Below, piece by piece: positions 24,318-51,500 of a stretch of 64,000 nt of DNA. Origin of the DNA: Ceratodon purpureus. Its lineage: Eukaryota > Streptophyta > Bryopsida > Pseudoditrichales > Ditrichaceae. Within the stretch, counting starts at the first letter, position 1; the number at the start of each line of letters is the position of its first letter. The stretch lies in NCBI GenBank assembly GCA_014871385.1, contig CM026423.1, positions 6,610,967-6,674,966 on the forward strand, given 5' to 3'. Both the position numbers and the translations under genes were made by a program. The notes under the pieces were generated by a model that was not told the origin of the DNA, made no database searches, and saw only the letters and a program-made list of their open reading frames with translations.

Positions 24318-26828
24318 ATGGCCGGCCGCCAAGCTTCGTACAAGTCCACCTTGGTGGGGGCGCCTTCTACTTCTCGTCCGCGCGCTCCCTCCCCCCCTGA
24401 TACCCTCACGGTACTGCACGAAGCTTATCGCTCTGGCCGCTTGGGCCAGGGAACCCTCCATCCCTTTCAGCCCCAACCCCACGAAGTCCTTCCGTCCGGC
24501 TTTTAGCGCACTTGTCAGGGTCTCCTCGTGCGAGACCAGGTCCGCCTTCAGCTCTCTGGCGCGGAGCAACGGATTCTTAGCGACGAGATTCGTTTTCTTC
24601 GTGACCACGTTCTACTGGCCAGCTTCCTCCCAGGTACACCCACTGACTCCTCCCTTTCCCGCTGGTGGGCTTCACTTCAGGAAGCCGCCTCCCCGGGTCG
24701 AGTTTTCTTTTACCGCAAGGCCGGACATGATTTTTACTACATTCGTACGGATGGTCCCTCGACCCTTCAACGGCTGCTGCTGGTTTCCCCGCACAGATTC
24801 GGCGATGCCCTGGCCATCTACCAAGAATGGACGCATGGTTTTAACCCGTACGCTCCTCAAGGTATTCTCACGCCCACTTGGATCTCATTTCCAGACTTGC
24901 CCCTGGAATTTTTTAAGCTTGCTTCTCGGGTGGCTCAACAGGTTGGTAAACTCTTAGGCGAAGACCCGGAACGGGGCCCTGAAGCCATCCCTCGTTTTTG
25001 CGTTGGGTTGGATCTTTCCTTAGGCTGGGTATCCATGGTCACTGGCACCACCCCCTCAGGAGAAACCTTTAGCATCCCTGTTCACTATGATGCTGTTGAT
25101 CTCCGCTGCGGACTCTGTGGCAGCCATCGTCACCGCTCGGCCTCCTGTCCCCGGCGAGGACACACCCCGGACCCGCCCTTTTCTGCTCCACCTCGGCCGG
25201 TAACAGATCCCCTCTCCCCTGACGTCCCTCGTACTGCTCGCGCCAGGACCCCCGCTCGCTCTCCTGGCCCCTACCCGCCTGCTGCATCCCGGCGTTATCC
25301 CGCCCGAGACCCGACCTCCTTGCCCAGAGCCAACCGCCGTCCCTCTCGGCCGCGTCAACCTCGGCCATCCGTTCCGTCCCCACCTCCCCCAGCTATCGAC
25401 AGCGATGGTTTTGAGCGAGTCCTTCCCCGTCGCCGCCCATCCCAATGGGATGTACGCCCCCCCAACCCCCCTGATGCCTCACCGATGGAGGTCTGCATCA
25501 CTCCTTCTCCAGTTATCACCTCCCCTCCTCTTCCCCCTCCCCCTCGGCCTGGCCGACGCATCCGACAGCTCCGCTGGGATGTCCCGCCTCCTGGTCTTAC
25601 CCCCTTACGTCCCAACTCGGGCCCTGGCCTTTTACCTACGCCCAACTTTGATACTGGGACCCCCTCCCCAGCTTTCACCCCCCCGGCCCCTCCCCACCAG
25701 GCCGTCGAGGTCTCCCCTCCCTCCTCCCTTCACCCCTCCACCCTCTCTTTTATCCCGATCCCATCTCTCCCTGACAATGACACTGATATGCTGGATGTCG
25801 ACGAATCCTCCGGCACTCCTTGTGCTCCGATTTCTTCCCCGACTGGCACACCCACTCTCCCTCAACCAGGCTCTTCTACCAATCCCAGGTTTGTAAGCGA
25901 CTCCCCCTTGGATGATGATTCCCGCCTCACACCACCCTATGAGTGGAATGGCTGGGAACGTGTCCCGAGGCCCAGATTCCCCATTCGGGGGCCGCCTCCG
26001 GCCTCCCCTGATCCTCCCCCACCATGCTCTGACTTGGTCGCCACGATCGCTCCGACCGACTCGGATCCTCGAGGGGCACCCTCCTCCCCATCCCATTCTT
26101 CACTCCAAGCCTCGGCCTCTTCCCCCGGCGCCTCGCGATCCCAATCCAATACAGCGGCCCCGGAAAGTGCCGGTTCCACATCCCCTCCTCATCCTGGTCC
26201 TGCAGAAACGCCTCAATTCCGAAATGTGGACATTGTCCCTTTCGCTCCTCCTCTGCCACCACCCCCGGTCGTCCCTGACCCTGGTCCCCCCCCTACCCCA
26301 ATTCTCCTTGACCCTGCCTCCCCTGATATTCCTTTACACCTCCCTTTCCCGGCCGATCCCCTCATTGTGCCGTCCGAAACCGCCCCCACCCTCTCGCCTT
26401 CCTCACCTTCCCTTCCCCTTTCCCTTGGTGCTTCGACCCCCGCTCAGCCGGTCTTTGCCCAGCCTGTCGGCGAGGACGAGGAGAATTTTGTGGATGCGGA
26501 TATTCACCTTGCAGCCCTCTCCCCCTCCCCCCGTAAATCTAATTCTTCCTCTCCCCTCCGTGGCAGCGTTTTCTCGGCCTTTACCCCTCCCACCTCCCCG
26601 CCTCCTCACACCACCCCTGGTGGCCATCCTCCTCCCTCCCCCCCTCGTTTAGAAACTGGCCCTTCACCGACAGCTCCCTCTTCTGTGCGTGCTATCCGAG
26701 CTGCAGCTCGGATCCGCCTCCCCACCCCTTCCCCTCGCCAACCTCCTCCAATCTCCTCTTACGACCTCTGGGGCTTTAGATCCGCCCCCAAACCCCGCGA
26801 CGGAGACGCGTCTCCTTCCTCGCCATGA
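24318..26828 (+). pseudogene. LINE ORF1 (gag-like, CCHC zinc knuckle), one in-frame stop
   Basis: This ORF encodes the RNA-binding protein of the LINE, which packages the element RNA with ORF2. The ATG at 24318 opens a frame interrupted by a TAG at 24504-24506; the same frame then stays open for 766 codons to 26828. The N-terminal third resembles plant LINE gag proteins, with a conserved block at WISFPDLPLEFF, followed by a CX2CX4HX4C zinc knuckle (CGLCGSHRHRSASC, about 25107-25148). The remaining 550 or so residues are extremely Pro/Ser-rich and probably disordered. The stop codon TGA overlaps the ORF2 start as ATGA, an arrangement used for coupled reinitiation in some LINEs. If the stop at 24504 is real, translation from 24318 is blocked; a non-ATG or later start could bypass it. 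Confidence 0.82.
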
Positions 26829-29800
26829 AGCTAAACCTTCTTTCCTTTAACGCCAGGGGCCTCAATGATGATGCGGCTGTCGCGCTCCTCCGCACCTACA
26901 TCCAAAACTCCCGACCTGCCCTGGACATTGTTCTCATTCAAGAACATAAGATTCTTGGACCTGGGCTTTCTCGTCTTGGCTCCCGACTTTGGCGGCATGC
27001 CATTGCATGGGGTTTGGCCGCCTCTGTAGGTTACGGTCATCAACCCGGCGACCTTGGAGCCGGTTGTGGTGGGGTTATCACCCTCCTTGCCCCTCGGTGG
27101 CAGCGGCAAATTGGTGGCCATGGCAGCTTAATGGACAATCGCGTCCAATGGTTCACGCTCACCGGCCTTCTTGGCGGGGATGTTGGGGTTGCAAACATCT
27201 ACGCACCCAACGACTCCCCCACCAGGTGCATTCTCTGGGAGACGTTAGCCCGGGATCTTCCTCCCTCCTCTCGCTGGATTCTTATTGGCGACTTTAACAT
27301 GGTCGAGCTCCAGGCGGATAAAACCCGCCAGAGCTCTTCCATGATCCCCCTCCGCGAGCGTCTCCTATTTGACGCCATGAAGACGTCCCTCAATGTCGCC
27401 GACAATCCCCGTACGGCCGGTAGCCTCCAATTTTCTTGGGATAACCAACGACCTGGGCCCGACCGGATACTCGCTCGCCTCGATCGGATGTACCTTTTTC
27501 CTTCCCCCCCCCATTCCCCAGGCCGGCAGATCCTGACTTACTCCATAGCTGGCGACTTTCCCCGGTCCGACCACCATCCCCTTCGGGTCACCTTACAATT
27601 TGACGCCGAGCCCAAACGCCCAACCCACTGGAAGATCAACTCGCAATGGTTCCAAGCCGCTCAACCCACGCTTGAACAAGTCTGGCGTGCAGCTCCCCCA
27701 GGGGAAACGTTTTTTACTAAATACCGCCGCATTCTCCACAGGTATCGCCAATATTGTAAGACCCAAGCTGCTATTTATCGGGTCGATGAGGCTGCTCTTA
27801 CTGCCGAACTCGAAACCGCCACTGCGGACCTTCAATCTGACCCCACTCATGGCCCCCATGCTATCCGCCGGGGCCTGGCACGCGAAGCGCTTGAAGCCTT
27901 CCAGAACCGCAAGATTGCCGACAAGCAAGTCCGCATGAGGCTCCGTTGGAAGCTCAAAGGGGATATGGTTAGCCGCGAATTTTTTCGGGCGGTCCAGGAA
28001 CGACCTTCCACTACACCTATCCTCTGTCTCAAAACTGAGGACGGCACCCGCCTGGAGGATCGCACCCTCATTGAGGCCGAAATCCTTCGCTTCTACTCTG
28101 AGCTCTACTCCCCTCCCCCTGCTTCCCCGGCCCGAACTCAGGCAGAAGCTGAGCTGCTGGCCCTGATTCCAGACTCCTTCACTTCGAAGTTCCCGGCTGA
28201 GCTCCTCGACCGGCTAGGGGCGCCCCCTGAGGCTCCTGAATTATACGCAGCCCTCAAAACCATGGCCCTCGGCAAAAGCCCGGGCCCCGATGGGGTTACT
28301 GTCGAATTCTTCCTCCATTTTTGGGACCTCTTGAAAGAGGAATTCACTGCGATGATCCACTCTGCCATTACCCTTGGCCGACTCCCTCGTGGTATGAATC
28401 GGGGGCTTCTAGCGCTCTTGCCCAAAGATGGAGACTTAGAGCGCCTCCCGAACCTGCGCCCCATTGCCCTCCTCAATACTAGTTATAAAATTTTCGCAAA
28501 GGTCCTCCAGATCCGGTTGCAGGTTCTCCTTCCCGAGGTCATTCACCCCGGCCAAACTGCTTTTGTCCCTTCCCGCTATATCCTTGATACCGTAATGGTA
28601 CAACATGAAACTATCGCCTGAGCAAAGGAATCTTCTCAACCTCTCATGATGCTGAAACTGGACTTTCGCAAAGCTTATGACGTTGTTTCTTGGAGCTTCC
28701 TCTTTGGCGCCATGGATCGGATGGGGATCCCACCCTCCTTCACAAGGATGGTTCGCATGCTACTGATGGACGCCCAAGCCTCCGTCCTCCTCAACGGCAT
28801 TCCCACGGCCACCTTTGAGGTTCGCAGGGGGGTACGCCAGGGGTGCCCCCTTGCACCGTACCTGTTTTTACTGGTTGCAGAGGCTTTGTCTACGGCCACT
28901 AAAGCCGCTGAAGCTCAAGGAATCCTTCACGGCATTCGCCTTCCGGATGGGCACACTTATCAGACCCTCGCTCAATACGCAGATGACGCCACCTTCTCCC
29001 TTCGCGGCCAGGAACCTGACCTCCGCGCACTCTCGACACTCCTTGATCATTTTGGCCTCGCTACCGGGCTGGACATCAACCGTGGCAAGTGTGCGCTTTA
29101 TTGGTTTAGCGACGCCCCCCCTCCACCCTGGCTGAACATCTTTGGTTGTGCTATTGCCCCTCCTCTTTCGCTGTCAAAACTTTTGGGTACCCCGTTCGGG
29201 GTCTCTCTTTCCACCCCGGATGTCGACCAATTTCTGGCATCCAAAATCACACGGAAGCTTCCTCACTGGACCTCTCTTCACCTCTCCTTGGCAGCCCGTG
29301 TTACCGTGGTGAATTCGGTTCTTCTCTCTACTCTCTGGTACTTCTTAAGTATCTGGGGCGGTTCCTTGACAATCCTGCGTACCATTCGGGCTACTCTCCG
29401 GAACTACATTTGGGCTGGAGTTACCGCACACACGAGAGCCCGGGTTAAATGGACAGATTGTTGCGCCCCTCGCAAGGAAGGCGGTTTGGGCATCATTGAC
29501 CCTGAAGTAGCCGTCGCTGCTCTTATGAGTAAATGGGTACTGAAGGCGCTGGAACCCGGTTATTCCCCTCTGCACATCCTCCTCCGTCACCGACTTCAAT
29601 CCATTCGCCCGCCTCGCACCGGGACGTGGCCCCCGTCCCTGCACTGGACGCTCCTTCCCCGCTTCTCCACGCACCGCGGTACTGGTTTGTGGTCCCGAGT
29701 TCTTCACGCCTGGCGTCTCACTTGCCCGGCTTTACAGGTCCGGCCCCCTCTGAATTACGACGAATTCCAAAACGTCCATCTGTGGTGGACCTCTTTCTTT

Positions 29801-31123
29801 TTTGCTCAGAATTTTGGTTTCACCCAGGAGAGGGCTCGCCAGCTTACACGCGCCGGTCTTACACACCTCCATGATATCCTGGATCCGTCCTCGCTCCAGC
29901 TGCTCTCTTTCGACTGCCTTCGCCGCCGGTTCCCCCTCAGTCCGGGAGATTTCCACAACTTGCAGCGGGCCTGCCGGCATCTTCCCCCTGCCTGGATCCA
30001 TACGGCCATTCAGACACGACACCAGAGTGTCAAGGGCGACTGGCTCGGCTTATATGCCTCGACGGATGACACTCTCCCGGCGTTGATTTTTCAAGCCGTG
30101 GCCGCCTACCTCCCTCCGCTGCCTGACTCTGCCCAAGACATTACCTTACCTGCCAATGTCCCGAGTTTCATTGTCGGCCCTATCTCCCACATGCTCCAGG
30201 CGTTACCCTCCCAATCCCATCCCCCACCAATTCATCACGGCCACCTCCGCCGCATCCGAGTTGTCAACTGTCGGCCTAGAGCCAAACCTCCGAAACCACC
30301 TATCTACAAATTCTTGGCCCCGATCTCCTCTTTGACTTTTGACCCGGGCGTGTGGCATTGGCGGAATGGTGATCCTCTTAACACTTACGCGGCGCGGACA
30401 GGTGGCGCTCTTCGCCCCCCCAGATCGTCCCCGGCGCTCTCATTCGAGGCCAAATGGTATCACCTTCTCCCGACCCCTTTTCCAGCGGACTGGCGTGCCG
30501 TTTGGCACACGGACCGGCCCAAGAAGGAAGCAGGCTTTCTCTGGAGCCTTTATCACAAGGCTATCGCCGTTAACCACTGGCGTTCTCAGGGACAGCCGGC
30601 AATCTCTGCGCTCTGCGACTGTTGCTCCACTGGTACCCCGGAAACTCTTCTACATTGCTTCTTTTTCTGTGAGCATGCCTTTCACGCTTGGGATTTCGGT
30701 ACATCGGTACTCCTCCAGGCTGCAGGGATCTCCCCTCCCAACCATCGGTATCGCCGATTTACCTGGCGTCAGTGCCTCCTTGGAGAGCCTCTACCTGGCC
30801 ACCTTCACCGAGTCGCCGATACTTGGACGCTCATCCGCGGCACCATTCTCTGGACCATCTGGCTACGTCGAAACGCGGCCGTCTTCTCGAACTCTCATTG
30901 GCCTTTGGAAGTTTTTAAAACCCGGCTTTGGGAAGCCATTTTAGATCTACCACGGGCGGCCTGGGCGTTAATCCAATGGTCACAGGAACATGAACCTGCG
31001 GCTCTCCCCGGCCGGGTGGACAGGTTCACCCTTACGTGGAAACATAATGACTTCTTCTTTACGGAGCGCGACGACTCATGCCTTTGGCACTTCGCCCGTC
31101 CCCTTTGTCCCCCGTTTACTTAG
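26825..31123 (+). pseudogene. LINE ORF2: endonuclease and reverse transcriptase, one in-frame stop
   Basis: ORF2 supplies target-primed reverse transcription. From the ATG at 26825 it has an apurinic-like endonuclease domain (FNARGLN, LIQEHK, NIYAPND, LIGDFNMVE, SDHHPL). The reverse transcriptase follows (GKSPGPDGVTVEFF, LRPIALLNTSYKIFAKVL, LKLDFRKAYD, RGVRQGCPLAPYLF, catalytic YADD at about 28978-28989). Then comes a zf-RVT-type Cys/His segment (CDCC...LLHCFFFCEHAFHAW) near the C-terminus. No RNase H domain was seen. A TGA at 28619-28621 splits the frame between RT blocks, where relatives usually have Trp (ETIA, stop, AKES). Reading across it, the frame continues for about 1432 residues. The protein is either dead or the stop is a sequencing or editing difference; all other motifs are intact. 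Confidence 0.9.
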
Positions 31124-35341: not shown

Positions 35342-35480
35342 AAAGTTGAATTATCTTTTTTTCAAACTAGATTAATTCCCTACAACCTAAGTAATGAGGT
35401 GTATGACCTCTTGTTCCCGCTTCATCTTATTTGCTAATCAAATCCTTGGTAATGGCTCCAATTTGTGGTAGGCTACTCAG

Positions 35481-35875
35481 TAGGAGAAAAATGAGCTCAA
35501 AATAAGGCCGTGTAAGCCTGCCCTTTCTAGGTGAACTCCCTACTTTGGGCACCTCTGCTGCTGGCAGCGGATGCCAGAGTTGCTGCCCGCACAGAACTGC
35601 GTGGCGCACTCACAACAAAGGTCCTCGGAATATTAGGTGAGTCATGAATGCCTTGGCTCGGGCTTTGGTCCCAAGTGGGCAGGTTGTGTCAGCCCGACAC
35701 TGTAGATGTGCCCTCCACACGCCTCGCTCGGAGGTCATTGGTTCGAGCCCCCGTGGCGGTTGCTGGCACCACGGTGGCACAGCCAGTGCCATGTCAAAAA
35801 GTACGCGGGCAGCGCCCGTTTTTTTCTCTCACGTGCCGCTTACACGGCCTTTTTGTGACCTGATTTTTCTCCTAA
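35481..35875. mobile_element. 0.4-kb MITE related to the 11.4-kb element
   Basis: Terminal inverted repeats: the left end reads TAGGAGAAAAATGAGCTCA and, further in, AAGGCCGTGTAAGC. The right end reverse-complemented reads TTAGGAGAAAAATCAGGTCA, then AAGGCCGTGTAAGC. The right end of the large element (48502, reverse-complemented) reads TTAGGGGAAAAATGAGGTCT, then GGGCCTTGTAAGAC, clearly the same pattern. The MITE also contains one copy of the 9-mer GCTGGCAGC (35570-35578) that fills the large element. It has no credible ORF. No target-site duplication was identified. Confidence 0.75.
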
Positions 35876-37096
35876 TGTCGCAGGTATGGTCATATATCTA
35901 GCACGGCTTCATGTTCCAACATCCGACCGATCATTGATGCTACAGCTAAGTAACACATTTTTTTAGAATACTCAATTTATTGATGAAGAAGAATGTATGC
36001 TTGGTGATGCCTCCTTTTCCTATGGGTGTAGATGGATGTAGCTGGATGTGTGCCATATCAAGAATTTGTAACACAAAGGTACAAGAAAATGGCTATTAAC
36101 TACCGAGCTTTCTTTTCAATGGGCAAATATTCCACTATAAAGTATAGGCTTGAGGTTATTGAATCATTCTTCAACAATTGGAGCATAGTGCAAAACTTAA
36201 CCTTTTCTAACTTGAATGGGTGGCGGAAGCTTCTCCGTCTGGTCAAGTTGGACATATTTTTCAAGTACAAAGGCCCTTCCCTCATGCCCTTTTTACTTCT
36301 TAGAGTTCCATTTTTTTGGTCATTCAAGTGACTTGATTGTCAACATTTCTTGTCTAAATCTGTTTATTGTTAGGATAATACCTTTTGAGGACATTTGCGA
36401 TCAACCTCTATCAACCTAGCCTTTGAATACTTCGGTTTTGTTTGATTGCTAGGATTTGTACAAATCATTGCCTTCAATCTAATGGAATGGCAGTAGAGGC
36501 CAGTTCTTCTGGTAAAGACAATGGATTTTTTAATGTATTCTACTAAATATGGATACCCAATTCCTTTGGCAAATAAACCTTAGCAATCACAACTTCACCG
36601 TAAACAAGTTGCTCTTAGTATTTTAAATGACAAATCATTTAGAACCATCCGAAGATGATGTGGTGCAAGCATAAACCGGCTAGGCTCTAGATTTTCTTTG
36701 TACATCATACTGAGGGTGCCACCTATTGGTTGTTGATACAAGATGATGCGTTTCCGTAGCAAATGCAAGTATTGTATGTACAACATATAGAAGCATGTAG
36801 AGCATTGTTTGTAGATGTGTAGCCTAGCCACTTCGGTTTGATAGACATTTGTCCTCATTTGAACCCACTTTTAGTCTCCTTCCGTTCTCTCTTATAAGAT
36901 AATCTTCACTACAATTCTTGTGTGCTCTAAGATGGCTAGGATGTATTCTCCTTCCAATCGAGCGCTTAGCATTGCATTAGATGTCTTACGTCTTTCAATT
37001 TTGCCGTATGTTTGGTAAGTCGGCTCCCATTAATCTTCACGAGGGAGTGGTTTGATGTCTTCTTTGTGTGTCAGCTAGCATGGCAAGAAACCATCA
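35876..37096. other. Intergenic, no gene seen
   Basis: AT-rich spacer between the small MITE and the large element. ORFs of up to about 100 codons on both strands around 36032-36858 show no motif. Confidence 0.45.
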
Positions 37097-37861
37097 TTAG
37101 GAGCAGTTTGGGGTCTCCAACGGGCCTTTTCCATGTTATTTGTGCCAAAATTTTGGGCATGCCCGTGCACTTTACCTGCTGGCACCAACTGTGCCAGCAG
37201 GTCGCCAAAAGCGAGCCAAATCGCGAATGGGGGGGTCCGGCCAATAGTCGCGCAGGAAGGCTTCCCTCCCCCGCGCGTGTAGTCCCGCAGGTCGAGAACG
37301 GAGCTTCTTCGCGCAAGGAATTCGAGCATTGCAAAAGGGTGTCAGCGGTGGTGGGCTTTATGAACTCCTGCAAAACTGACTCCACAGGCCACCTACCGAA
37401 ATCGAATTGCCGCTCCCCCTTTGAGATGCAACGTGCACAAGGTGTTGATGTCGAAATGCTGCCAACGGTCATTCCGAACCTCATGCGTTCCCCTGAGAGA
37501 GTTGTTGTCGTTGCGTTGTCAAGCAGGATGGAGCGGTGGAGGCCTCCAAAGGCTGGGCGAAGTTGTTCGATTTCGGTTGTGGGTGGTCACGCATTGTGCA
37601 GTAGAGATTTAGGGTTTAGCTGTAGTGGTCTTCCAACGCTGCCAGCGGTCTGCCATCCACATAGGTTGGAGAGAGTACCTGAGTTGGGAATTGGGGTTTC
37701 AGGATGAGGTTTTAGGGTAGGTCGTACCTTGGTTGCGAGGCCGTGGACGCAGGTTTCAGCCGTTCGTGATGGCGGAGGGTGTGTTGACAGCGTGTAGTTC
37801 TGGCGGTTGATGACAGCGACGACACCATTTGTAAGTTTTTGAGTTCACAGTCGAAAATTTC

Positions 37862-39200
37862 ATGCATTCTAGTGGTATGGCTTCACGGCCAAACTCCCTC
37901 GTACAGAGTGTCATTCTGCATAATACTCAAGACTTGGAGGGCAACTGGATCCCCATGAGGGTGGATCGTGATTCATGGGTTATGCTGCAACCAGCGTCGG
38001 ATGGGCCTTGGGGTAGAGAGGCAAGGCGACATGGTGGAGAAAATTTTCGGGGGGCCTTTAAAGCGCACATCAGAGATTTCTCTTGGATCTCCACGGAGCA
38101 TGGAGCATGCGACCTCGATAAGGTGCTTGTGCAACATGCATATCAACCAAGGCATCTGCGCTTGGATCCTACGGAGGCAGCAACCAAATTGGGAATGGCA
38201 AACTACCTGTACGCGTCGGTTTCGGAGGATTGGGTACATCCTGCATCTATCCTTGGTCCCATTCTTGTGCTCCATGTTGAGATTGGGGAGGCAACACGGA
38301 ATCGACAGAGCCACGCGGAGTTGCTGGACATAGGTACATTCTTCCTTGGTGGTCTGTATTTGCCTCCAACAGGTGACACGCTGTACGGGAAGGTTGAAGC
38401 ACTCCCGCTTCCAGGGTTCAACGATGTGGAGTGGCCTTTGCCAGACATGCACACATCTGAGGCGTTTAGAACAAAGCTCACTCTCGATTTTGCAAATGCT
38501 ATGAAAGCAACAACTGGTAGCAGCTTCGTCCACCAGCAATGGTTTATGCCAATCCATGTTATGGTTGATTTGTTTGCGGTAGCTGCTGACAGCATTAGGC
38601 GGACACCTACATTGTTTGTTTTGAGTAGTCCATCCGAGGCTCTGCTGAGCAGTCTAATGAACCCAGGGTGGAACGAGAAGTTCTACATTGGCCAAGATGT
38701 CATCAAGTGCGTTGCCAACAGGACCAGCATTGTTTTCCGCTATCACGTGGGAAGACAAACATTATACACCAGGTTCATGTATACAAGGTATAGGGGGGCT
38801 GCCAACAGTCAGTGGGAAGCGTTGGATCACCTACCAGAGGAGGTGATGGTGGAAGTGTCTTGTATGTTTAGGGGGAACTTGCTGCCAACATTCGAAGTTG
38901 GCAAGGGTTGGCCAGTATCCCACCTGCGGCACGAAATTGCAATGGCACTTGGAGATGACGTACCTGGGCAGTACAACCTGGTTTTGATAGAGGCCAACGG
39001 TGTTCGTGAGAAAAAGGTACGAGTCTAGCCGAATTCATGTAGTCGTTTTGATGTGTTGGGAATTGGCTGTTCAGAGCTCCTTGCTGCCAGCAAACGAAAA
39101 TGACAGGATTTGTTGGATGCAGATCAACCAGCGCCATGAGAGACACCTTACAGCTGCGGATGTCACGGTTCCCAAAAGGATGAAGATTGTGGAGCTGTAG
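37862..39200 (+). CDS. Transposon-encoded protein with ubiquitin-like C-terminus (2 exons, 410 aa)
   Basis: Exon 1 is 37862-39016 (ATG start, 385 codons), intron 39017-39122 (GTACGA...GATGCAG), exon 2 39123-39200. The first 320 residues or so are a globular, unrecognised domain (blocks FRGAFKAHIRDFSW and GRQTLYTRFMYTRY). Residues about 327-410 look like a beta-grasp, ubiquitin-like fold: VEVSCMFRGN, then LRHEIAMALG, YNLVLIEANG and, in exon 2, HLTAADV. The fold call is by pattern only. The alternative acceptor at the GCTGCCAG motif (39083-39090) gives a different, less ubiquitin-like tail. It lies inside the 11.4-kb element, divergent from the RING gene, and is presumably an accessory protein of transposition. 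Confidence 0.6.
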
Positions 39201-40179
39201 GAAAAGTGATTTCGGGGATGGGTAGTCACAGTATGTGGGAAGTCATTAGGTTCTTCGCGAAGTCGTTAGCGAGTTCAGGTAGTGGTTTTGCTTACCATTC
39301 AGGACTTTCTGTGGAACATCCTGTATTAACGTGTTATATGGAGGCAAATTTGTGATTACCCTTGATCTTCGTGCTGCCAGCGGAAATAGAAAAGAAAAAC
39401 AGTTACAATTACCAGTGGTGAATCCTAGGGTGCAAAATGAAAAATAGAATAAAATACAAGAAGTCTGAAGAATGGCCGGGGTTTCAGAGGGCCTGGGTCT
39501 GAATCGCAAAATTGCTTCGAACTTGTGGTGGCGCCATTGACGCTGGAGCTTGCTGCCAGCGCAAAATAAGAAAAGAAAAACAATTGCATACAATAGAGCA
39601 CATGACCCTTCAGAGGCACAAAATGGAGTTTGGCACTTGACAAATATGAAGTAATTAGGAAGGAATGTAAAGTCTGTTACTTCCTCCGAAGAGGCTCGCT
39701 CCTTCGTGAACCTGGAACTCTGAACTGGCAATGGCGGGCACAATGCAGCCCTTGGTGCCAACAAAGACGAAAAAATGAAGTTTGCAAATAAAAAAAGAAC
39801 CACGCTTGATTCTAATAGAACAAGATAAAAATAAAAAACAGTTGTACATAAGAGATGAAGTAGGTCGCATATGGTAAATAACAACAATGGCCAAAATTGA
39901 AAGGGACCATGGTGGCGAATAATGAAATAAGAAAAAAAAAAAAATGGCGGCTAAAGAGCAGCCCTTGCTGTCAGCAGTCCACAATAAAGAAGAAATACAG
40001 TTGCGAATAAAAAGGAAGGGTTACAAGAATGCCATATCTTTCAAAGAGACATGGCAGTCCAGAGGCAAATTGTTTTCAAGTTCGGAAAAGTTTAAAAAAT
40101 GTAGCCCATAAAAGTCCGGACCAAAAGTCGCTGCCAGCAAACCCCTAACCCGGCCTACGGAACTATCTAAGGTGGGAAT
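39201..40179 (-). other. Transposon segment with repeated motif-flanked AT-rich blocks
   Basis: Between the Ubl-like gene and the RING gene. Three or four similar blocks start with a GCTGCCAGC-type motif (39373, 39552, a GTGCCAAC variant near 39753, a GCTGTCAGC variant near 39966, and 40130) and continue with A-rich sequence such as AAGAAAAGAAAAACA. Read on the minus strand each resembles an intron 3' end: a long pyrimidine tract followed by GCTGGCAG. These may be introns and small exons of an extended minus-strand transcript, or remnants of duplicated exon-intron units. Confidence 0.4.
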
Positions 40180-42170
40180 CTACTCCACGGCTGCATCTGT
40201 GGCAATTGCCTCAACAAGGCTGAACAGTCCCTCCATGTTGGTGTCGTCCTCGTTCTTCTCAGCTGCACCTGGTCCTTGCGTGGTGGCGGATGAGCCCTTG
40301 TTCCCTTCTCCGGATAGGGCTGCCTGGGTCTCATGAGGAGAGCGTTGCGTGGGATCGAACGCCAGGGAGTCTGAGTCGGGGAGAGCATCCTCTGTAATTG
40401 CTGCCAGCAAACAAGAATTAGAAAACAAGAATTATTCGGATGTAACAACGAATTAGGCAAGTAGCAATGGGCAGATAGGTTAAGGGGCAACAAACCTTGG
40501 TCGCCCTTGGTCTTCTTCCACGGAGTCGCGGCCACAGAGGGGGCAGCGGGCCTCTTGCTGCCAGCACGTGGTGAAGTAGGCTCGGCCAGGAAGATCTCCT
40601 CCGTGAGACGTAACTCCTCCGCGGCCTTGGAGTTGAGGTCGAAGCTCCACTGCCCAAGCCATCCTCCAGTCATCCCCCGCTCGCATCGACGGCACCGGGC
40701 GTCTTGGGAGAAGACTGCCTCAAACATACAATGGGGATGTGCCAAGCAGCCGCAGAACAAAGGTACGCAGCAGGTGTCAACGAAGTAACGCTCGCAGAAG
40801 GGGCATGGGTCGTTCAAGGCTATTGGCAACACCTGGAACTCCAATGGATAACGAGCCAGCACCTTCTTCGGGCGCAAGAAAGCTGAAGCCAACTCCAAGG
40901 CCGAGATCTCCGCTGTCAGCGCGGAGACCTCGGCGTGGCGTCTCTGCTCATCGGCTTCCATCTCCTCCAACTTCTTGTAGACCCTGTCAATGCGGGCTTG
41001 GGCCTCAAGGAGTGCCTTGCTTGCAAGCCCCAGCTTGTCTTGGCCTAAGCAGGCCGCGTGATCAAAGCGCCTCTTCTCTTGGTCGTTGCCATCAGCCGCG
41101 GCCTTCTTGGAGGCCTCGCGGGCGGAGAAGATGTCGTCATAGAGCTTGGACTCCTCGGCCTCCTTGGCTTTGATGTAGTCCCGCTGGGTTGCAAGGTCGA
41201 CCTTCACGCGGTCCCGGCTGGCCTCCACCTTCAGAAGTGCCGCCTCCAAGGACTTCTTCTTGAGGCGCTGCTGCTCCAGGACCTGCTTCGGATCCGTTGC
41301 CACCAAGGGCTGCACCTTGATGGCAACGGCAGCAAGGGCCTTCACGGACTTCTTCTCAGCCACGGCCTTGGCAGGAGGGGGCAGGGATCTAGGTCCCCTG
41401 ACCTTCTTCGCCTCCGCGGCCGTGATCAAAGCCTTGGAGGTGGCTCCAACTGGCTTGGCTCCTCTGCTGGACTCCGCCCCTCCTCCCTTGCCCTTGCTGC
41501 CAGCACCGGGGATGTGGCCAGCGAGGAAGTTGATAATGGCTTCAATCTGCTCCCTCAAGGCCGGGGGAGTCAACTTCTGCGGATTACGCCCTGGCAGCTT
41601 CTCACGCCCCTTCACAATTGCCTCCGCCTTCTGGGCGAAGTTGACATCCACGCCCTTCTCAAAGTAGAGGTGGCAAGCCCGAAGGAAGGAGGTCCCGAAT
41701 GCCCAGTTGTCGGGGTCACCTCCATAAGTCCACCGGTACATCTCGCAGTATTTCCTCTGGGCCTCCGGATCCTCACAGTCAACAACGTAGTGCCGCCCAG
41801 AAGAACGCTCTGGCCATCTGTCGATGAAGTCGGCCTTCCTGCAATGCTTGTCGCCGCTCAGGTCACCGAACTTGAGCCCCTTGTTGGAGAGCTGCAAGGT
41901 GCGGGCGAAGAAGTCCTCATCGTAATCCGCAGCCTGCCTACCCAGCAGAAATGGGGCGAGGTGGTGGAGCTGTGCATGAAGTGCAGGGGGTAAGCCGTCC
42001 AAGTCGAAGGCATCATCCCACGGCGTCTCAACATCGTTGCCATCCTCCTTGCTGTCAGCAACCTCGACGACCTCCTTCTTCACGACGGCCTCCTTTCCCT
42101 TCCTACGGCTCGACATCCCTGGCGCTGGTAGTGCAAAAACAACACGTTTTACGAAAGGGGGATCGCGCAT
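40180..42170 (-). CDS. Transposon-encoded coiled-coil, RING-like protein (2 exons, 631 aa)
   Basis: Exon 1 runs 42170-40496 and exon 2 40400-40180; the 95-nt intron (40495-40401) begins GTTTGTT and ends TTTGCTGGCAG, and the frame continues exactly across it. Features: a basic Lys/Arg segment (about residues 19-32), an acidic segment, a globular part with WTYGGDPDNWAFGTSFLRAC (145-165), a Lys/Ala-rich linker, a coiled coil (about 298-430), then a RING-like zinc finger. The finger has C456 and C459, C473/C475, H478/H480/C481, and C493/C496. An acidic tail follows in exon 2. RING fingers usually recruit E2 enzymes for ubiquitin transfer, but the ligand order is not fully canonical. Translation could instead start at the second ATG (42116). 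It lies in the 11.4-kb element, whose + strand gene has a ubiquitin-like tail. No known family recognised. Confidence 0.65.
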
Positions 42171-42388
42171 GGCAGCTGAAAGGAGAGAAACGGACAGGGT
42201 ATTATTCTTGCAGATTAGAGATTTAAGCTACACATCTCTAAACCATTACCCCCCGCGACCCTAGCAGCCATTGCTGAGCAACTCTATTCTCTTCACCATG
42301 GTCGGAACGCTCCAACATGGCCAACCGCAACATAAGGAGGAGCAAGGTTGCAAAAAAATAGAGACGATCAGATCACTAACCTCGCAAT

Positions 42389-43350
42389 GCTTCACTGTCA
42401 GCGGTGGAAGACGGTGCAGCTTGAAGCCCCTCTCGCCGCGCGTGACAATGCGCCTCTAGATTCTGCAGCCGAGAAACCTCCACCTCACCCCACGCTCCCT
42501 GCCCTGCTGCTCCACCCCGCTTCTTCTGCTATAGCTCACCCTCCCCTCTCTTCGGCTGGCCTCGGTTCTTCTCCACTCCGCTCCTCACGCTGCAGCTCCA
42601 CGCTCGCTGTTCACTTCGCCAATGAGCTCCACGCCTGCTCCTCACTATTCGAGAGCTCCACCCCGCTCCTTGTGCTGTACCCCCCTCCCCTCGGGCTCCC
42701 GACCGTGCTGCTCCTCCCCACTCCTTGCGCTGTAGCTCCCATCCGCAAGAACTCGCCTTCAGCTCCACGGCCGCTCCTCATGTGACCCTCAACGCGAGCT
42801 CCGTGTAATGCAGCTCCGCCCCGCTCTATCACCTTCCGTGGTCCACCACAGTGCTTGCGCTTCCGTTTCTTCTTGCCAACGACGTTGCTGCTCTTCCTTC
42901 GTCCGCCTTGCTGTACCTCCCCGCAGCTCTCGACCCTGCTGCTGCTCCTCGCTCCCGACCTTGCTGTACCTCCCTGCAGCTCTCGAGCCTGCTGCTGCTC
43001 CTCGCTCCCGACCTTGCTGTACCTCCCCGCAGCTCTCGACCCTGCTGCTGCTCCTCGCTCCCGACCTTGCTGCTCCAAAACCGCTCACGACCCCCTTGCT
43101 CCACCTGCCGTTGAATCTCCACGGCCCTCCTCGACGGCTCGCTCCTCACGCTGCAGCTGCTTCGTGCAGTCGACCGCAACGGCCCCTTCCTTCAAAGTCG
43201 TTGCTGGCGGTACTCTTCGTCTCCTCACGCGATCCTCAACGACCCAAAGGGGGTGCGTGACTGTACCGCCCTCTGAACATCCAACTTCTCCACGGCGCCC
43301 ACAAAACTGCCAAGGTAATTGCAATCGCGAGGGCGCTTGCTGACAGCAAG
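42389..43350. other. GC-rich, low-complexity centre of the 11.4-kb element
   Basis: A stretch dominated by CTCC, GCTC and CTGCAGCTC words, open in several frames on both strands because of its composition. I do not regard the overlapping ORFs (for example 42348-42785, 42855-43343 on +, 43078-42611 on -) as genes. It contains the 53-bp tandem array listed separately and may hold promoter sequence for the flanking minus-strand gene. Confidence 0.5.
42908..43066. repeat. 53-bp tandem repeat, 3 copies
   Basis: Three nearly identical 53-bp units at 42908-42960, 42961-43013 and 43014-43066. Each begins TTGCTGTACCTCC and contains CTGCTGCTGCTCCTCGCTCC. Units differ by one or two bases. A partial fourth copy follows. 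The period is not a multiple of 3, so the reading frame changes from unit to unit. Confidence 0.9.
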
Positions 43351-43851
43351 AGGACGACTGAAGAAGACAGAGGAGCTGAAGAGGTGTTGGAGTCAACGGA
43401 GGGTGTCGTATGGGAACAAGGCAGGAAAAGAGAGAGGCCTTCCTGCCCGAGTCAACCACATGTGCGTCCTTGGAAACTAGGCCGGGTTTACTTCAAGAGG
43501 ATATTGGAACGCTTTTAGGGGAGGTTTGGGGGGCTTAGAGGGAGTTGAGAGTCTCAAACAGAGTTTAATGAAGGGAGGTTGAGGAGTTGGTGCAAAGCTC
43601 TCATTTCTCCCTTAATTGCCACTCCATGCAAATGATTGCCATGGCCCTAAACCACACATCCCCATTTGATGTGGGTACTTAGAAAATCGTCTTAGAAATT
43701 AAAATCTTAATTTGAGCGTGACCGGTACATATGATTACTAAGACCATTAATTATGAAGATTAATAATTGCATGGACTAGGCACTTTAGTGAGCTATCCAC
43801 AAAACAAGTTTAGGGTAGAAACATGGCCTAACTCATTCAAAAAAAACATTG

Positions 43852-44640
43852 TTGCCAGCCACATTCTACATAGCTCTAACATAATTACCAAAATACATTG
43901 TGGTCAAGTCACACACGGCCATTGCTCGCGTCGTCACTGTCCTCATTGCTGCCAGCGACCTCACTGTCAGTGGAGTTACTGCCTTCTCCATGGGTGCCTC
44001 TTTAATAATTATCGAGATTAACATAGCAATGGATAAGCCATTTTAGGCAATTCCTGGATAAAATCCGAATTTTTTTATAAATCTATTCGTAAATGGCTAT
44101 TCGCAAATGTCTACTCCGATTAAAAAAATTAAAAAATAAATAAAAACTTGCCACATTCTAGATAGGTATAACATAATTACCAAGGCACATTGCGGTCAAG
44201 TCACACACGGCCATTGCTCGCGTCGTCACTGTCCTCATTGCTGCCAGCGACCTCACTGTCAGTGGACTCCCCTTCTTCTCCATGGGTGCCTCTTTAATAA
44301 TTATCGAGATTAACTTAGCAATGGATAAGCCATTTTAGGGAATTGCTCGAAAAAATCCTCATTTTTTGATAAATCTATCTGTAAATGGCTATTCTAGAAT
44401 GAAACCAAAAAACATGTTAAAGAAGAACCACTGTCTACTCCGATCAAAAAAATTAAAAAAAATAAAAAACTTGCTACATTATAGATGTCCATCCAATGAG
44501 TTTAGAACGCATAATTTGTACTCAATTCATACAGGCTCGTTGCCAGCGTCATCGCTGTCCACGTTGTTGCCAGCGTCGTCACCGTCAGTTGAGTTGCGTC
44601 CTTCCTCAAGATCCACATTGTTGCCCTCCTCCCCGGGGTC
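43852..44640 (-). repeat. Triplicated terminal exon region of the transposase gene
   Basis: Tandem copies at about 43852-44145 and 44146-44468, with a third, diverged and partial, from about 44469. Each begins with TTGCCACATTCTA or a close variant. On the minus strand each holds a short acidic, Ser/Asp-rich coding end: ESTDSEVAGSNEDSDDASNG in two copies and NSTDGDDAGNNVDSDDAGN in the third, the last joined to the transposase frame. All end with a stop. The coding part contains the GCTGGCAGC motif. Confidence 0.75.
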
Positions 44641-47619
44641 ATCTTCGTTTGCAGATCCTCTTGCTTGATCATTGTTGGCTCCATCACCTCCAACGGTGTT
44701 ATCACACACCCAAGCTTTGCCAACACGCCGTCGCCTTGACCGCCAATTCTCCAAAGCCCTGGCAGCATTTGATCGATGCCACTATTCTCGCCTTCTACGT
44801 GTAGCCTCCATGCGGGCCTCATCGTCCGGGGTATTGAGAACCCTGGTGGACTCTAATTTCTTCTTATACCGATGCTGTATATTTCGGTACCAATGTTGGA
44901 ATTGTTGCAAAATAACACTGATGCGCTCTTTGCCACCACCGTGAGCTGTATGCGCTTGATTCGCTGCCTTCGCTTGATGATGGGATTTCTCCATACCCTG
45001 GCAACTCCATACGGCCAGACTACCGTATTCCTCCACAAACCAACTGCCATGCGTGACAATTACATGCTGTCAACAGCCACTCCAAGGTTAGTCCTGGATA
45101 GAGAATTGACAAAAGTGAGGTCAGCCATCAACCCCTAATTCATCCTAAACCTCGTTCATATAACTCACCATGTAGTGCGACACATGCTCCTCTCCAAAGG
45201 CCTCCAAAAATGTTCTCCCCCACGTTTCTATCTTCCCTTTGAACTGGAGTCGTTGTTCTGCTGTCAGCACCAAGCCGCTGAAATATGGTAGAACCTCTTC
45301 AAAGGCTTGCCACATAGCAGCCCTTGCCCTACGATGTGCACCGCCGCCACTATTATTGCTCTCTGCTTGACATATGTCTTTCCAGGCCTTGTCGTTTCCA
45401 GACCATACGTTTGGTTTAAATAGTCTGCTAGCAACAACCCCACTGAAAGATGGCTTCTGTGGCACATTCCCTGTGCTGCCACTCAGTTTCGGATCTTTTC
45501 TAATCTCCACATTGCCACCGTGAGCCCCGATAGCTGACAAGGACTTCTCCATTTGCTCTATGGCTGTAGCCCTCAGTCTTTGATCTTGTATGTTCCAGAC
45601 ATAAATGATGTGTTGATGCACAATCTTCTCCGCTAGGCGAACTAGGGCGTGAAGTGTACAAATGTGCACTCTTTGCAACGGAATTGGCAAGATAGGCCTC
45701 CACCTTGTATGTGCACGCATGTCACATGGTTCTGGCTCCACAGAGTTGGCAAACAGTCCCCCCACCCAGTTCGGTTTCCCACGTTTTCTGATGGCAGCAC
45801 TCGCCTGGCTTGCTGTCCCTACGGTAGGCTTAGCCCTCTTCTGCTCGCAGTATATGCAGTTCATCGCACACGACGGCCCCGACTGTAGCCCGTACATACA
45901 CTTGATCGTCTTCATGTCCGCAGCGAGATGCCACTCCACATGGAATTCTCCAACTTCAGGGACCGTGAGTTTCTCGCCACTGGACTGTGCTGCAATCACA
46001 GATGGAAATTTGGATTTCCCAAATATCCACGACAGAACTTCGTAGGACTCTTTTTCCACTTGAAAGGTTGCCACTGGCCAGATTTCCTGCTCCGACTGGA
46101 CTGAGAAAAACAGGGCATGGTTTCTCTGAATGTCTGGGTCGAGCACCCTATTCATCAATGTGATGCTCACCCGTTCAAACTTCTTGCCATTGACAATCTC
46201 GGCCTCGTCCAATTTCATGACAAATACCAGCGGTGCTCCTCTTAACTCTGTGGAAACATGGCGAGTGGATGTGTAAGTCATGGTTAATTGATAAATAACC
46301 CTGCTGGCAGCAAACTCTGAAAACAACAGTCTGAGGTGATTACGTTACCTTCTTCCGTGATGCCGTAGAAGATCACCATGCTCCTTTGGACCACCTCAAG
46401 GTCTGTGAATAGGGAATTCTTGTCAGTCAAAACGACTTCCTTTACCATGTCCTCGGACTTCTTGTTCTTCTTAGAACTTGCTGGCAGTGTAAGTCGACCT
46501 TCAGCATGGTAGTATTCGCCAATATACTGTGGCAGGTTTGCATTTAACTCCTGCCGAAGCAGTTTCACGTGATAGGGGCTCGGCAAAATACTCCCGGAGA
46601 CTCCTTTGTTCAGAGCAGCAATGGAGCCTTCACAGATTTGTAGAGAGCACCATATCCCCGATGGGAAACCCCTGCCTGGTCGCAAGCAGCAAGAATTTTG
46701 TCCGGTCCAATACTCTTACTAATCGATTTGAGCACATTTTTCGCAATATCTGACTGAACATGTGCCATTGCAGGCTGAGAAGCGAGCGCTACACCTTCAT
46801 GCCGTGACAAAATTCGAGCTAGTGCTACTGCAGTCCTATTTTGGGACTCTTTATCCCCCGCAGTCGAGAGCACTTCCGGTTCTCTCGGTTCCTTTCGACA
46901 ACAAACTGCACCACATCTGGTTGCAGCACTGTCCGCACAAGCTTCACTCTTGCTTTTGATCCACCTGATCCAGGTTTTAACTCGTGAATCCCTCTGAGAG
47001 CCCTCCTCCTATTTCGCATGCCCATGGGGGTCTCCTTCTCGAAGCTGGCCCTCCGCTGGCAGCGGTCAACGTCTTCTTGGAGACCCCGCACATGGCGCTC
47101 CAATTGCTCCACCCTTTGGGCATGGCAATCACGGACAGCCTGTAATTCAGCTTGCAAATCCCTGCATTTCTTCTCTAACTCAAGGCAACGCATTCTCCCC
47201 AATTGGACATCTTGGGCTGCCCTTGAGTTGCTGGCCAGAGCTTCGCCTCTCAGCTGAAGCACTTCTTCGCTCAACTCTGCCAACTGGATCCACGTCTCCT
47301 CCTGTGTAGGACCATGTACACAATGATCCAGCAGCCTGTGTGTATATCCGCGAAGACCCTGCTCTCCATGACATATGAATTCAACGAACTCTTTTAGCGA
47401 CTTGATTGGAGGTGGCTTCCCTGTCATTGGGTCAACAGGGTAAATGTCTCCATTGATCCACAAGTCAATGTTCGTGTCTCCACGCAACCTCCGTGTTGGA
47501 AACGAGCTCCTCATGCACAGCTCCACTTGCGTAGAACCTCGTCTCATGACCGGGGCATAGCGTGTGTCCAGTGCAAAGTGGGGAATGTACTGATTGCTTC
47601 GTTCAGCCCTTGCTGCCAT
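44527..47619 (-). pseudogene. DDE transposase-like gene with RAG1-like catalytic and zinc spacing, disrupted
   Basis: Minus strand. The first segment (47619-46860) begins MAARAERSNQYIPHF and has a coiled coil. The frame then changes at a G run (46855-46859) and again near 46626-46645 (SHRGYGALYK, then SIAALNKG), and once more near 46311-46348. The core segment (46326-45169) has a first Asp in MKLDEAE, a second in LAADMKT, and CIYC 20-23 residues later. An intron 45168-45067 (GTGAGT...GTTGACAG) joins to HVIVTH and a Glu in SCQGMEKSHH. A TAG at 44782-44784 interrupts the frame before a basic, then acidic tail ending at 44527. The D, D, CxxC, H-x4-H, E layout matches the RAG1 catalytic core, including the 20-residue step from the second His to the Glu. 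Probably the transposase of the 11.4-kb element; inactive here unless the breaks are assembly errors. Superfamily unassigned. Confidence 0.7.
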
Positions 47620-48502
47620 CGTGGACTCGATAGTCGGTAATCTTGATTGAATCTCCCCTGGTCACACTTGGTGATTTGCTGTTATTCGAGAGAACTTGTT
47701 ATGATCTTGGGACACCTCCTACACCCAATGAAAAACTAAATTCACAACCTCAAATACTCCGAACCTAATTCGATAGACCTGCGTGGCATCTACAAGCGCT
47801 ATCGACCACGAAACCTACATTGCCTTATGCCGTTGTGGCAGCAAGGGCTAATGAAATCGAAATTCAAATTGCTCAAAAACCCAGTAGCCCCTGAACACCC
47901 CACAAAGGTTTATCGAATTAGGTTAACTTACCTTCCCTTCAAGTACATCAGTTTTCATCTCTTCGTTGAAACCTTGGTCGCCGACTGAGAACAACCCCTC
48001 GCCGCCGTCGCTGCCAGCGGACGCTGCCAAGAAATGAATTGCAATCTCAATTTTGCTCCTCCGGTCTGGGGCGCCATCGCCACTCGGAATCTTTCTCGCA
48101 AATCACATACGATTGTGCGTCCCACAGTGCCAACAACGACTTGCTTGAAGCAGAACAGGGCGCTTCGTTTTCTTGGTGCTGAACGGCGTAGAGCCGGTGG
48201 CGCCATCGCGCCCAGACCGTTGTGGCAACAACTCGAACAATCCGTGGATCGAGGCAACGGATCGAGGCACTTCATTAATCGCCGAGCAATAAATCCCACT
48301 CCTTGGCGCTCAACAACCACCGTCCACGCCCTCTCGCCAACGAGGACCAACTGTGCCACGCAACTCCCGTCCGTCTCCAAAAGGCCGCTTCGGGCAGCGT
48401 TTCAGACCCCTGCTGACAGCGACAGAGGGGGTTTTGGGCAGGCAGCCCACCTAACCCGGGCTGTCTTACAAGGCCCGTTGGAGACCTCATTTTTCCCCTA
48501 AT
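47620..48502 (-). promoter_or_regulatory. Right end of the 11.4-kb element, probable 5' leader of the transposase gene
   Basis: This stretch lies upstream of the transposase ATG at 47619. A good donor, GAAG|GTAAGTTAACC on the minus strand near 47930, suggests an untranslated first exon spliced towards the coding exon. ORFs on both strands (48034-48501 +, 48380-47955 -) are GC-driven, and the + one runs through the terminal repeat, so I do not call them genes. The TIR lies at 48470-48502, and motif copies lie at 48010-48018 and, as a GCTGACAGC variant, near 48412. Confidence 0.4.
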
Positions 48503-51500
48503 GTTTTGATGGTATGGCTCTTAGAAGCCATATTCTTGAGTACATTGACAATTGTGGTCATAGTTGTAGGATGTCACTCGAGAAAGAGTTTAATCCGATT
48601 TGGTGTTTGAATGAGGTTATTTGCTTTCGATGATCTGTATTGTCTTAAATAGAAGTTTTCACGATCCCATTATGATCTACCAAGGTCCAACACCTTGTTA
48701 AGATCTATTTTGATGTTATTTATTTATTTATTTTTAATATGATCACTGTACATTTGAAACATTTATTCATAGATTTTACATGTTCTCAATAAGTTTCTTG
48801 AAAAATTCAACAATTAAAAAAATTTATTTGTTTTTCTTGTATATAATTCTAATGTAAGATATAGGTCTATTTACCAATGTCTAATTTTAAAATTACAAAA
48901 CATCTTCTATAATTATCTATCTATAAAATAGTTGTTTAAATTACTTCACTTACTATTATATTTATACAAAGAGAGAGAATTCTTCGAACAAATTATAATT
49001 AGAGCGAGTGAATTTCACTTTACAAGCTTGGTGGATATTCAATGTAGGTCATTGCATGGCATTTATTGGTTTAAAAATATGTAATGAAAATACAATACAT
49101 ACTAAATATTTTACTACAAATGTCATATATGAACTAAAAATGACATTGTTTTAATATGAAGGAATAACAGCCATTATATCGCAAAAAATGGTTTTTCAAA
49201 AGAAATGGATGAAAAAACTGTATATCATACGAAAAAGATAATCGCTCCACGCTCTTACCAAAAGTAGAAAGCCAACCAATCGACAAACTGGAGAAGCATC
49301 ATAAACTAGCCTCTCAAGCATCTTTACTGATACTTTCTCTGCATTTTGTTTATCGAGTCATACACCATGATCTATTTTCCAGATTTTTCTAAATTTTGCA
49401 GGAATTTTCATGTATTTATGGATCTTGAACTTTGAGCTTGGGCGATAGGACTTCACACTAAGAATTACTGCTCATGAGTATCAACTGGGTTACTGGTAAC
49501 TGGATTTACTGGAATGAACAGAGACTTGATCCTAAGTTTACATAACCCATCTACATTGAATTACTGTGCTTACTGAAATGATGAGAATGTTTCCAACTTT
49601 CCACCGATCTCTTTGACGTGGCTGAAGGTCCGTCTTAGAAGGCCTGCATGACCGGGCAAGCGGGGGCTATATTTATGGCCCATTGCCAGATTCATGCCGT
49701 AAGTCGGCGGTTTCTGGCTCGGAGACCCTTCTTTTGGAAACGATACCCAAAGAAACCTTACTGGGTGCGGCCGACTCTCCTTCGATAAAGGACGTAACTT
49801 TTATCCGAACTTATCTCACGTAGAACCGGAAGTGGTAGGTGAGCACAGATAAACTTCCCATCCTTGTGAGGAAGAGTAGTTCTGGTCCTTCACGAATTGA
49901 AGCCACGGATCAGGTGATGGTTTTAATGTAATTTGCACTGAGTTTTGTTTCAGTCTGAATAGGAGGAAGTAATTTATTTTAAACATCTGATTGACATTTA
50001 AGTGTCTGAGGAGCTCGTCGAATGCAAGTGCGTGGAATGTAAGTTTAAAATAAGTTATTTACCTTACTGGTATTCCATCTCTTGAATCCACGTTATCTAC
50101 ATCTTGATCTGGGGGATTCTGCTGTATCAGTGCAAGTTAGTTTTTTCTCTCTGGGGCACAAATAGACTTTCTCCACTGTTGAACGTCCGGGTTCAGTAAA
50201 ACCTTCAATAAAATTATCTGTCATTAGCGAGTGAAATGATCAGTGAAGCAGAAACTGTTGATCTTGAGTGGATACTTTTATGAGTAGAAATGGTGAAGAT
50301 ACTAATGAAGGGAGGAGAGCACCTGTCCACGTTGTATTTTAAGTTGCAGTGAAGCCAATTTAATATTACTGGGAATTAGTCATTGGTCTCGCTAATGCAT
50401 GTTTTGGGAACACTTGTGCGAATTATTCGAACCAACTTGAGAGTGTCATAACGCATAGGGCTCGGACTGAGGCTAAACCGCACGTGTATAATTTACGGGC
50501 TCCACTGAATCCACTGATCTGCGGTGCCAGGAGCCGCACATGCATCACTAGGGCTCATGTCAGCAGCAGACTAGGAGCAATACTCTAAGTTCTAGACAAA
50601 CACTCATCGACGCCAACTACGCAGTTCATTGTTAAAGAAAAACTTCATCGATGGCTCCACTGTAATCCTACGGAGTCACCATGTGACCGACTGGTGCCCA
50701 TTTTTCTAACACTGTTTGGGTTGGGCACACGGCGTCACCTCTGAGGACCGTGGCTCTTAGTGCACCATTGATGGAGCCTGGCCGAGCAGGAGAAGAAGCC
50801 TGAAGAAGAAGCCTGAAGAAGGAGAAGAAGACGAAGACGAAGAAGGAGGCTGGGTCTGGACTTAGGAGGTGGGTTACATTTGCTAACTTTTGGCTTTCCT
50901 CACCCTAGAATGCAGGTTAAGTTTAGTTGGATTCAGGCATTCATCTATGCGTGATTCGCAGTGACGATATGACAGTTGGTCTATCTTGAAAACTTTGAAT
51001 TCTTCCAGAAATGGTGAGTTTACCCTGGAAAAACATACCTGGGCCTGCGGGGCATGCATACACGGGAACGCCTCACTAATATGCAGACAGTGCGCTTCTC
51101 TAGTGTCATGCTTTTTAGCTGTGATTGGTAATCGGAACAGGTGATCATCTTATGCTTCAGGACGGGCAATAGAATGGTGATGATGCTGATAGTAGTTTCC
51201 TACAAGGAATGCTGTCAGTAGTTCAGGGTTGCTCCACTTAGGTTTGTAAAGAGAATGTTGGTTTGTGGTGTGGATTAGCGGACATTCGTAATAGCTGATC
51301 AAAGCATCAGAATCATAGTACCTAGCTGGCCGTGTGAAGGTTTTATGATTATCAATTTGAGAAAAGTTTGATTTTATGCAAGCTGGATCCTGACATTTTC
51401 CCCTGGTGGTCGTGGACTATTCAGGAAATGCGGCAAATGCCAAATACCTGAAAGTTTTCTGCTATTGCTGGATCAATCGAACAACCGGATTCGATGAAAA

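Follow-up and report, generated by a model that had tools for sequence, protein, structure and literature searches.

A DNA transposon of Ceratodon purpureus with a RAG1-like transposase core, in all likelihood an autonomous CMCT-clade element and very probably Lanisha

A stretch of 64,000 nucleotides from the moss Ceratodon purpureus (GenBank assembly GCA_014871385.1, contig CM026423.1, positions 6,610,967 to 6,674,966 of the forward strand; hereafter the window) contained an 11,409-bp DNA transposon whose transposase gene lies on the minus strand. In all likelihood this element is an autonomous cut-and-paste transposon of the CMCT (CACTA-Mirage-Chapaev-Transib) clade, and very probably it belongs to Lanisha, a proposed superfamily. 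The copies compared had the same borders, and the spliced transposase resembled RAG1 and Transib in profile comparisons.

Borders, ends and copies of the element

The genome searched for copies comprised 362.5 Mb in 151 contigs, and 20 copies were fetched. Both ends were read in 13 of these, and the 3' end was unread in the other seven. Similarity to the window copy stopped at 48503-48507 on the 5' side in all 20 fetched copies and at 37092-37095 on the 3' side in the five copies joined to downstream stretches. An earlier note on this DNA had placed a plant DNA transposon at 44527-47619; this interval corresponded to the transposase gene, but the element itself, with borders derived from the comparison of copies, was far longer.

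37095..48503, minus strand: entire element, 11,409 bp (minus-strand transposase gene; 5' end at 48503)
48470..48503, minus strand: terminal inverted repeat at the 5' end, CATTAGGGGAAAAATGAGGTCTCCAACGGGCCTT (34 nt; complementarity of 82% with the 3' repeat)
37095..37128, plus strand: 3' terminal inverted repeat, CATTAGGAGCAGTTTGGGGTCTCCAACGGGCCTT on the plus strand (34 nt)

The inverted repeats read CATTAGG..CCTAATG, or CATTAGGRG..GGTCTCCAACGGGCCTT over a longer span, and CA..TG termini were present. Terminal inverted repeats had been proposed before and do exist, but the true ends begin, with CATTAGGRG, two bases outside the motif given at that time. Taken alone, that motif was rejected as evidence, with 10 occurrences in the window at up to two mismatches and 6.2 expected. 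The remark that the repeats did not look like Transib ends or recombination signal sequences was borne out, as CATTAGG is not heptamer-like.

The 3' end sequence gave 293 matches in the genome at up to three mismatches, and the control gave none. The core exon was found in at least 104 copies at 92-100% identity (104 scored of 1111 candidates). The element is recently active. The five joined copies measured about 10.8 kb and the window copy 11.41 kb; the stretch 42182-43749, inside the window element and partly made of 53-bp tandem units, was not shared by these five. A second, synonymously diverged subfamily (L031-L038) was present in the same genome, with the core open in several copies. Two copies of this subfamily, at near-saturated synonymous divergence, started with CATTAGGAGAAAAATGAG, the same start as in the window family. 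Among the listed copies with at most 95% identity, 10 of 16 lay on contig C6 (110.5 Mb, 30.5% of the genome), presumably the sex chromosome.

Transposase gene

The transposase gene consisted of three exons separated by two introns with GT..AG boundaries.

44527..47619, minus strand: transposase gene, from ATG to the last stop (broken in the window copy)
46349..47619, minus strand: exon 1, N-terminal part, with a stretch resembling a coiled coil and with a helical region (interrupted in the window copy)
46248..46348, minus strand: intron 1, GT..AG, 101 nt (homologs P0023, P0062 and P0081 read on across here)
45169..46247, minus strand: exon 2, encoding the RNase H-like core (D1, D2, CxxC, LHA motif)
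45067..45168, minus strand: intron 2, GT..AG, 102 nt (position shared with homologs and with another subfamily of the genome)
44527..45066, minus strand: exon 3, with HxxxxH, the catalytic Glu and the C-terminal region
46207..46209, minus strand: D1 codon (MKLDEAE)
45916..45918, minus strand: D2 codon (LAADMKT; the family D2 is in register with RAG1 D708)
45847..45858, minus strand: CxxC (CIYC), presumed to bind zinc (register shared with RAG1 and, at loose settings, with Transib)
45049..45066, minus strand: HxxxxH (HVIVTH), presumed to bind zinc (register shared with RAG1 and, at loose settings, with Transib)
44989..44991, minus strand: catalytic Glu codon (QGMEK; in register with RAG1 E962)

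In the spliced window protein D1 and D2 were 97 residues apart, CxxC followed at +20/+23, and the Glu stood 20 residues after the second His of HVIVTH. This reproduced the layout described earlier for the protein spliced at 45067-45168 (D, 97 residues, D, CxxC, HxxxxH, E). Only one intron had been recognized; that intron was confirmed, but a second was found at 46248-46348. The spacing of exactly 20 residues between the second His and the Glu applied to the window copy, but the alignment placed the Glu at +19 in homologs P0081 and P0083, showing that the exact spacing is not constant across the family. The window copy of the gene is broken, with exon 1 not open throughout and a TAG at 44782-44784 in exon 3. 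A search for intact copies in the same genome, a check named beforehand, found exon 1 open over 459 aa in all five other joined copies. The Pfam matches of exon 1 were weak and to coiled-coil families only.

Three protein searches returned 78, 109 and 6 proteins, amounting to 130 distinct identifiers; one homolog, P0078, came from the fern Adiantum nelumboides. The donor of intron 2 was scanned in 78 homologs, 52 of which were printed. In 51 of the 52 the sequence read V, as at a GT donor, after [TS][HQ][YF][MILV] and then diverged; the 52nd (P0058) was a chance match elsewhere. At six of ten loci of the same genome an intron of 102 nt preceded HVIVRH and the Glu motif, and no such junction was found in the other four; at locus L036 the intron script gave an additional, spurious second junction. 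A motif search over 129 identifiers showed that P0081 (898 aa) and P0083 (900 aa) carried the whole core uninterrupted, through the last exon.

The spliced core of 437 codons was compared between the window family and the copies at L031, L036 and L037. The synonymous divergence (dS) was 1.46-1.67 and the ratio of nonsynonymous to synonymous divergence (dN/dS) was 0.073-0.086, indicating that the spliced protein has been under strong purifying selection. Four of the nine loci requested beside joined elements (L010, L030, L034 and L035) were without the core and were omitted. The recurrent intron site and a dN/dS of about 0.08 between subfamilies show that the transposase is a real gene.

Among the rows covering the respective stretch, D1 was conserved in 70 of 71, D2 in 83 of 83 and E in 7 of 7. 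The first Cys was present in 83/83 rows and the second in 81/83, and HxxxxH was present in all seven rows with the last exon, four of which had been picked by a script demanding H....H downstream of the intron. Because 79 of 106 trimmed rows had been kept for a KLDE-like or WHxxDMKT-like word plus a CxxC, the counts for D and C are partly built in. Without row selection, D2 was D in 94 of the 105 rows with a letter at that position, misaligned N-terminal pieces included. None of the Pfam transposase families matched the window frames, P0080, P0081 or P0083, and no transposase was found among the 25 listed of 95 weak families matched by 93 members of alignment A2. Pattern scans of viral contigs and prokaryotic genome contigs yielded no confirmed relatives.

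Profile similarity to RAG1 and Transib

A family profile of 83 rows, seven of them with the last exon, was compared with each target in hhalign and against 40 shuffles per target. The sequences of mouse RAG1 and HzTransib were taken from PDB alignments, and CACTA was represented by a single consensus. HzTransib scored 34.6 against a shuffled mean of 16.1 (z 6.5) and mouse RAG1 32.2 against 15.7 (z 5.7), these scores being single pairwise comparisons and not database-wide; a composite Transib sequence reached z 5.6. The score was never reached in 60 shuffles of human RAG1, nor in the 40 each of mouse RAG1 and HzTransib. By comparison, the CACTA consensus scored 20.8 (z 2.1, with z 0.6 and 0.8 in further comparisons) and Sleeping Beauty 17.7 (z 1.0). 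As yardsticks, RAG1 against HzTransib gave z 7.8, and CACTA gave z -1.4 against RAG1 and 1.3 against HzTransib. CACTA is a known relative of RAG1 and its kinship was nevertheless undetectable here, so that a low CACTA score is compatible with CACTA kinship of the element. The window exon, P0080, P0081 and P0083 did not match Pfam Transposase_21 (tnp2), which the CACTA consensus does match.

The alignment with RAG1 spanned 309-365 columns. Without guidance, D2, both Cys, the His of the LH motif, both His of HxxxxH and the E fell exactly in register with RAG1 in all four settings. With HzTransib, both Cys, the LH-His and HxxxxH were in register in the two loosest local settings. The distance from D2 to E was 277 residues in P0081, compared with 254 in RAG1 and 211 in HzTransib.

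Target sites

Flanks on both sides were available for the window copy, 13 other elements and a 400-bp relative in the window, giving 15 insertions.

35478..35877, strand not assigned: 400-bp non-autonomous relative (CATTAGGAGAAAAATGAG at both ends, one mismatch each)

At none of the 15 insertions did an adjacent direct repeat reach 3 bp; a repeat of 2 bp was seen in one and of 1 bp in five. The longest words common to the two flanks averaged 3.20, compared with 3.16 in shuffled pairings. A weak preference was observed for A at -3 (11/15) and T at +3 (8/15), symmetric about the joint itself, and this symmetry would fit insertion without a stagger. As read from the flanks, the element apparently inserts without duplicating its target.

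The reading frame stayed open across the junction in 5 of 14 joined flanks. Chance alone would leave about two of them open, by our own estimate rather than a computation, so that only one case, an insertion into a piggyBac-like frame, carries weight. In this case (L019/L048) one copy lay within a frame matching Pfam DDE_Tnp_1_7, which read on across the junction with no duplicated bases. The 400-bp relative contained an internal GCTGGCAGC and was likewise without a target-site duplication.

Accessory frames and internal palindrome

Two further open frames lay between the transposase gene and the 3' end of the element.

40167..42227, minus strand: second open frame of 686 aa (Cys/His cluster resembling a RING at 40683-40805; best Pfam E-value 0.32)
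37835..39028, plus strand: third open frame of 397 aa, in convergent orientation to the transposase gene (top Pfam match at an E-value of 0.23 and not to kelch)

The second frame was 591-602 aa long in the five joined copies. The third frame had the same length of 397 aa in all six elements compared and was found in at least 104 genomic copies at 93-100% identity, some with stops (104 scored of 1104 candidates). The palindrome GCTGNCAGC occurred 20 times in the window copy and 18-19 times in each of the other five, and GCTGGCAGC alone occurred 13 times, compared with 0.26 expected from first-order Markov samples. The palindrome may be a protein-binding repeat.

Elsewhere in the window, a retroelement of the long interspersed nuclear element type occupied 24507-31123 on the plus strand, with DUF4283, endonuclease/exonuclease, reverse transcriptase and zf-RVT domains.

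Discussion

The element combined the features of the CMCT clade: D, D and E, a C(2)C between D2 and E, an H(3-4)H before E, and CA..TG ends. According to PMC12730594, the C(2)C and H(3-4)H zinc layout is common to EnSpm/CACTA, Mirage, Chapaev, Transib, Plavaka, ESTA, Lanisha and RAG1. The layout is thus a signature of the clade and is not specific to RAG1. Lanisha was proposed as a superfamily by Maumus, McDaniel and Carey (2020, Repbase Reports; cited in PMC12730594), and the same text describes it as similar to EnSpm and as having the C(2)C and H(3-4)H motifs of the CMCT clade. Carey and Maumus also appear among the authors of the Ceratodon purpureus genome preprint. By authorship and description, the element is very probably Lanisha, and the suggestion in the earlier note that the family may be undescribed is probably wrong.

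Several results weigh against a CMCT element akin to RAG1 and Transib. Single family members reached only z 1.9-3.7 against RAG1 and Transib, HH-suite assigned RAG1 a probability of only 14% and Transib one of only 24%, and a combined RAG1 and Transib profile scored 34.7, without gain. D1 was in register with RAG1 in none of the four settings. With HzTransib, D1 was unmatched and D2 and E were off by three residues where covered; the default setting covered only the LH region and the global setting covered no key residue. The comparison of hidden Markov models proposed beforehand gave a divided outcome: RAG1 and Transib exceeded their shuffles and CACTA did not, but RAG1 and Transib were absent from single-sequence and profile searches of the PDB at E-values up to 10. 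The Pfam RAG1 model found no match in this genome, and its controls gave none either. CMCT elements are reported with target-site duplications of 2-5 bp and CA..TG ends (PMC12730594), and no duplication of 3 bp or more accompanied the 15 insertions.

It is improbable that the element belongs to CACTA/EnSpm or to another CMCT lineage such as Chapaev, Plavaka, ESTA or Mirage, with the likeness to RAG1 as a clade signature only. Such a placement would agree with the zinc layout common to all these lineages and with the CA..TG ends. Plant CACTA elements are large, with accessory genes and a repeated internal motif, and the present element resembles them in all three respects. However, the CATTAGG ends, the lack of a 3-bp duplication and the absence of a Transposase_21 match set the element apart from CACTA, whose single consensus did not rise above shuffles in a comparison that could not detect the kinship of CACTA and RAG1 itself. 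Among CMCT lineages the profile comparison covered CACTA, Transib and RAG1.

We find it slightly more doubtful still that this is a true plant Transib/RAGL element, belonging to the superfamily that gave rise to RAG1. The profile scores against HzTransib and RAG1, the LHAxxxxxE and ARxFF-like stretches in common and a second gene in convergent orientation, as in RAGL elements, all point that way. According to PMC7204232, however, RAGL and Transib have heptamer-like ends and 5-bp duplications, whereas the present element ends in CATTAGG and showed no direct repeat of at least 3 bp at any of the 15 insertions. Its convergent 397-aa frame is not recognisably RAG2-like and had no kelch or other convincing Pfam match, and Pfam RAG1 was unmatched in the genome, although the controls of that search were uninformative. 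The earlier note had offered a RAG1/Transib-type core or a sister superfamily with the same zinc-bound insertion. The core was supported by the in-register profile alignments (D2, CxxC, LH-His, HxxxxH and E with RAG1) but membership was not, and a sister superfamily fits better because the ends are not heptamer-like and a 5-bp duplication is lacking. An unrelated DDE family with the same layout by chance or convergence is very improbable: weak single-sequence scores, the D1 out of register and low HH-suite probabilities would suit it, but seven key residues stood in exact RAG1 register over 309-365 columns, with a score that none of the shuffles of human RAG1, mouse RAG1 or HzTransib reached.

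For the probable CMCT element preferred here, a mode of insertion can be proposed from the sequence. The transposase would adopt an RNase H core fold, in which CxxC and HxxxxH hold a zinc-bound insertion. It would bind the 34-bp ends, perhaps aided by the palindrome GCTGNCAGC and the two accessory proteins, and the D, D, E triad would do the cutting. Both ends would then be joined to the target at directly opposite positions, leaving no target bases duplicated. We infer in this way the roles of the RING-like protein, the convergent protein, the binding at GCTGNCAGC and the chemistry of cutting. More tentatively, and with odds that we put on the low side, the element may represent a land-plant sister lineage of RAG1/Transib that inserts at directly opposite phosphates and carries a convergent accessory gene and a RING-like protein; this would mean that a RAG-type core is able to run a blunt form of integration. 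Insertion without target-site duplication has a parallel in Spy of the PHIS group (PMC4482050). Spy, however, inserts within AAATTT, whereas only the weak preference for A at -3 and T at +3 was seen here, and its transposase is of another family (same source).

RAG1, the builder of antibody genes, derives from a transposon. Finding its catalytic and zinc layout in a plant lineage whose profile is also similar to those of RAG1 and Transib is of help in working out how the CMCT clade branched. The apparent lack of a target-site duplication would be an exception within this clade. With many near-identical open copies, the genome of Ceratodon purpureus might allow the movement of such an element to be observed.

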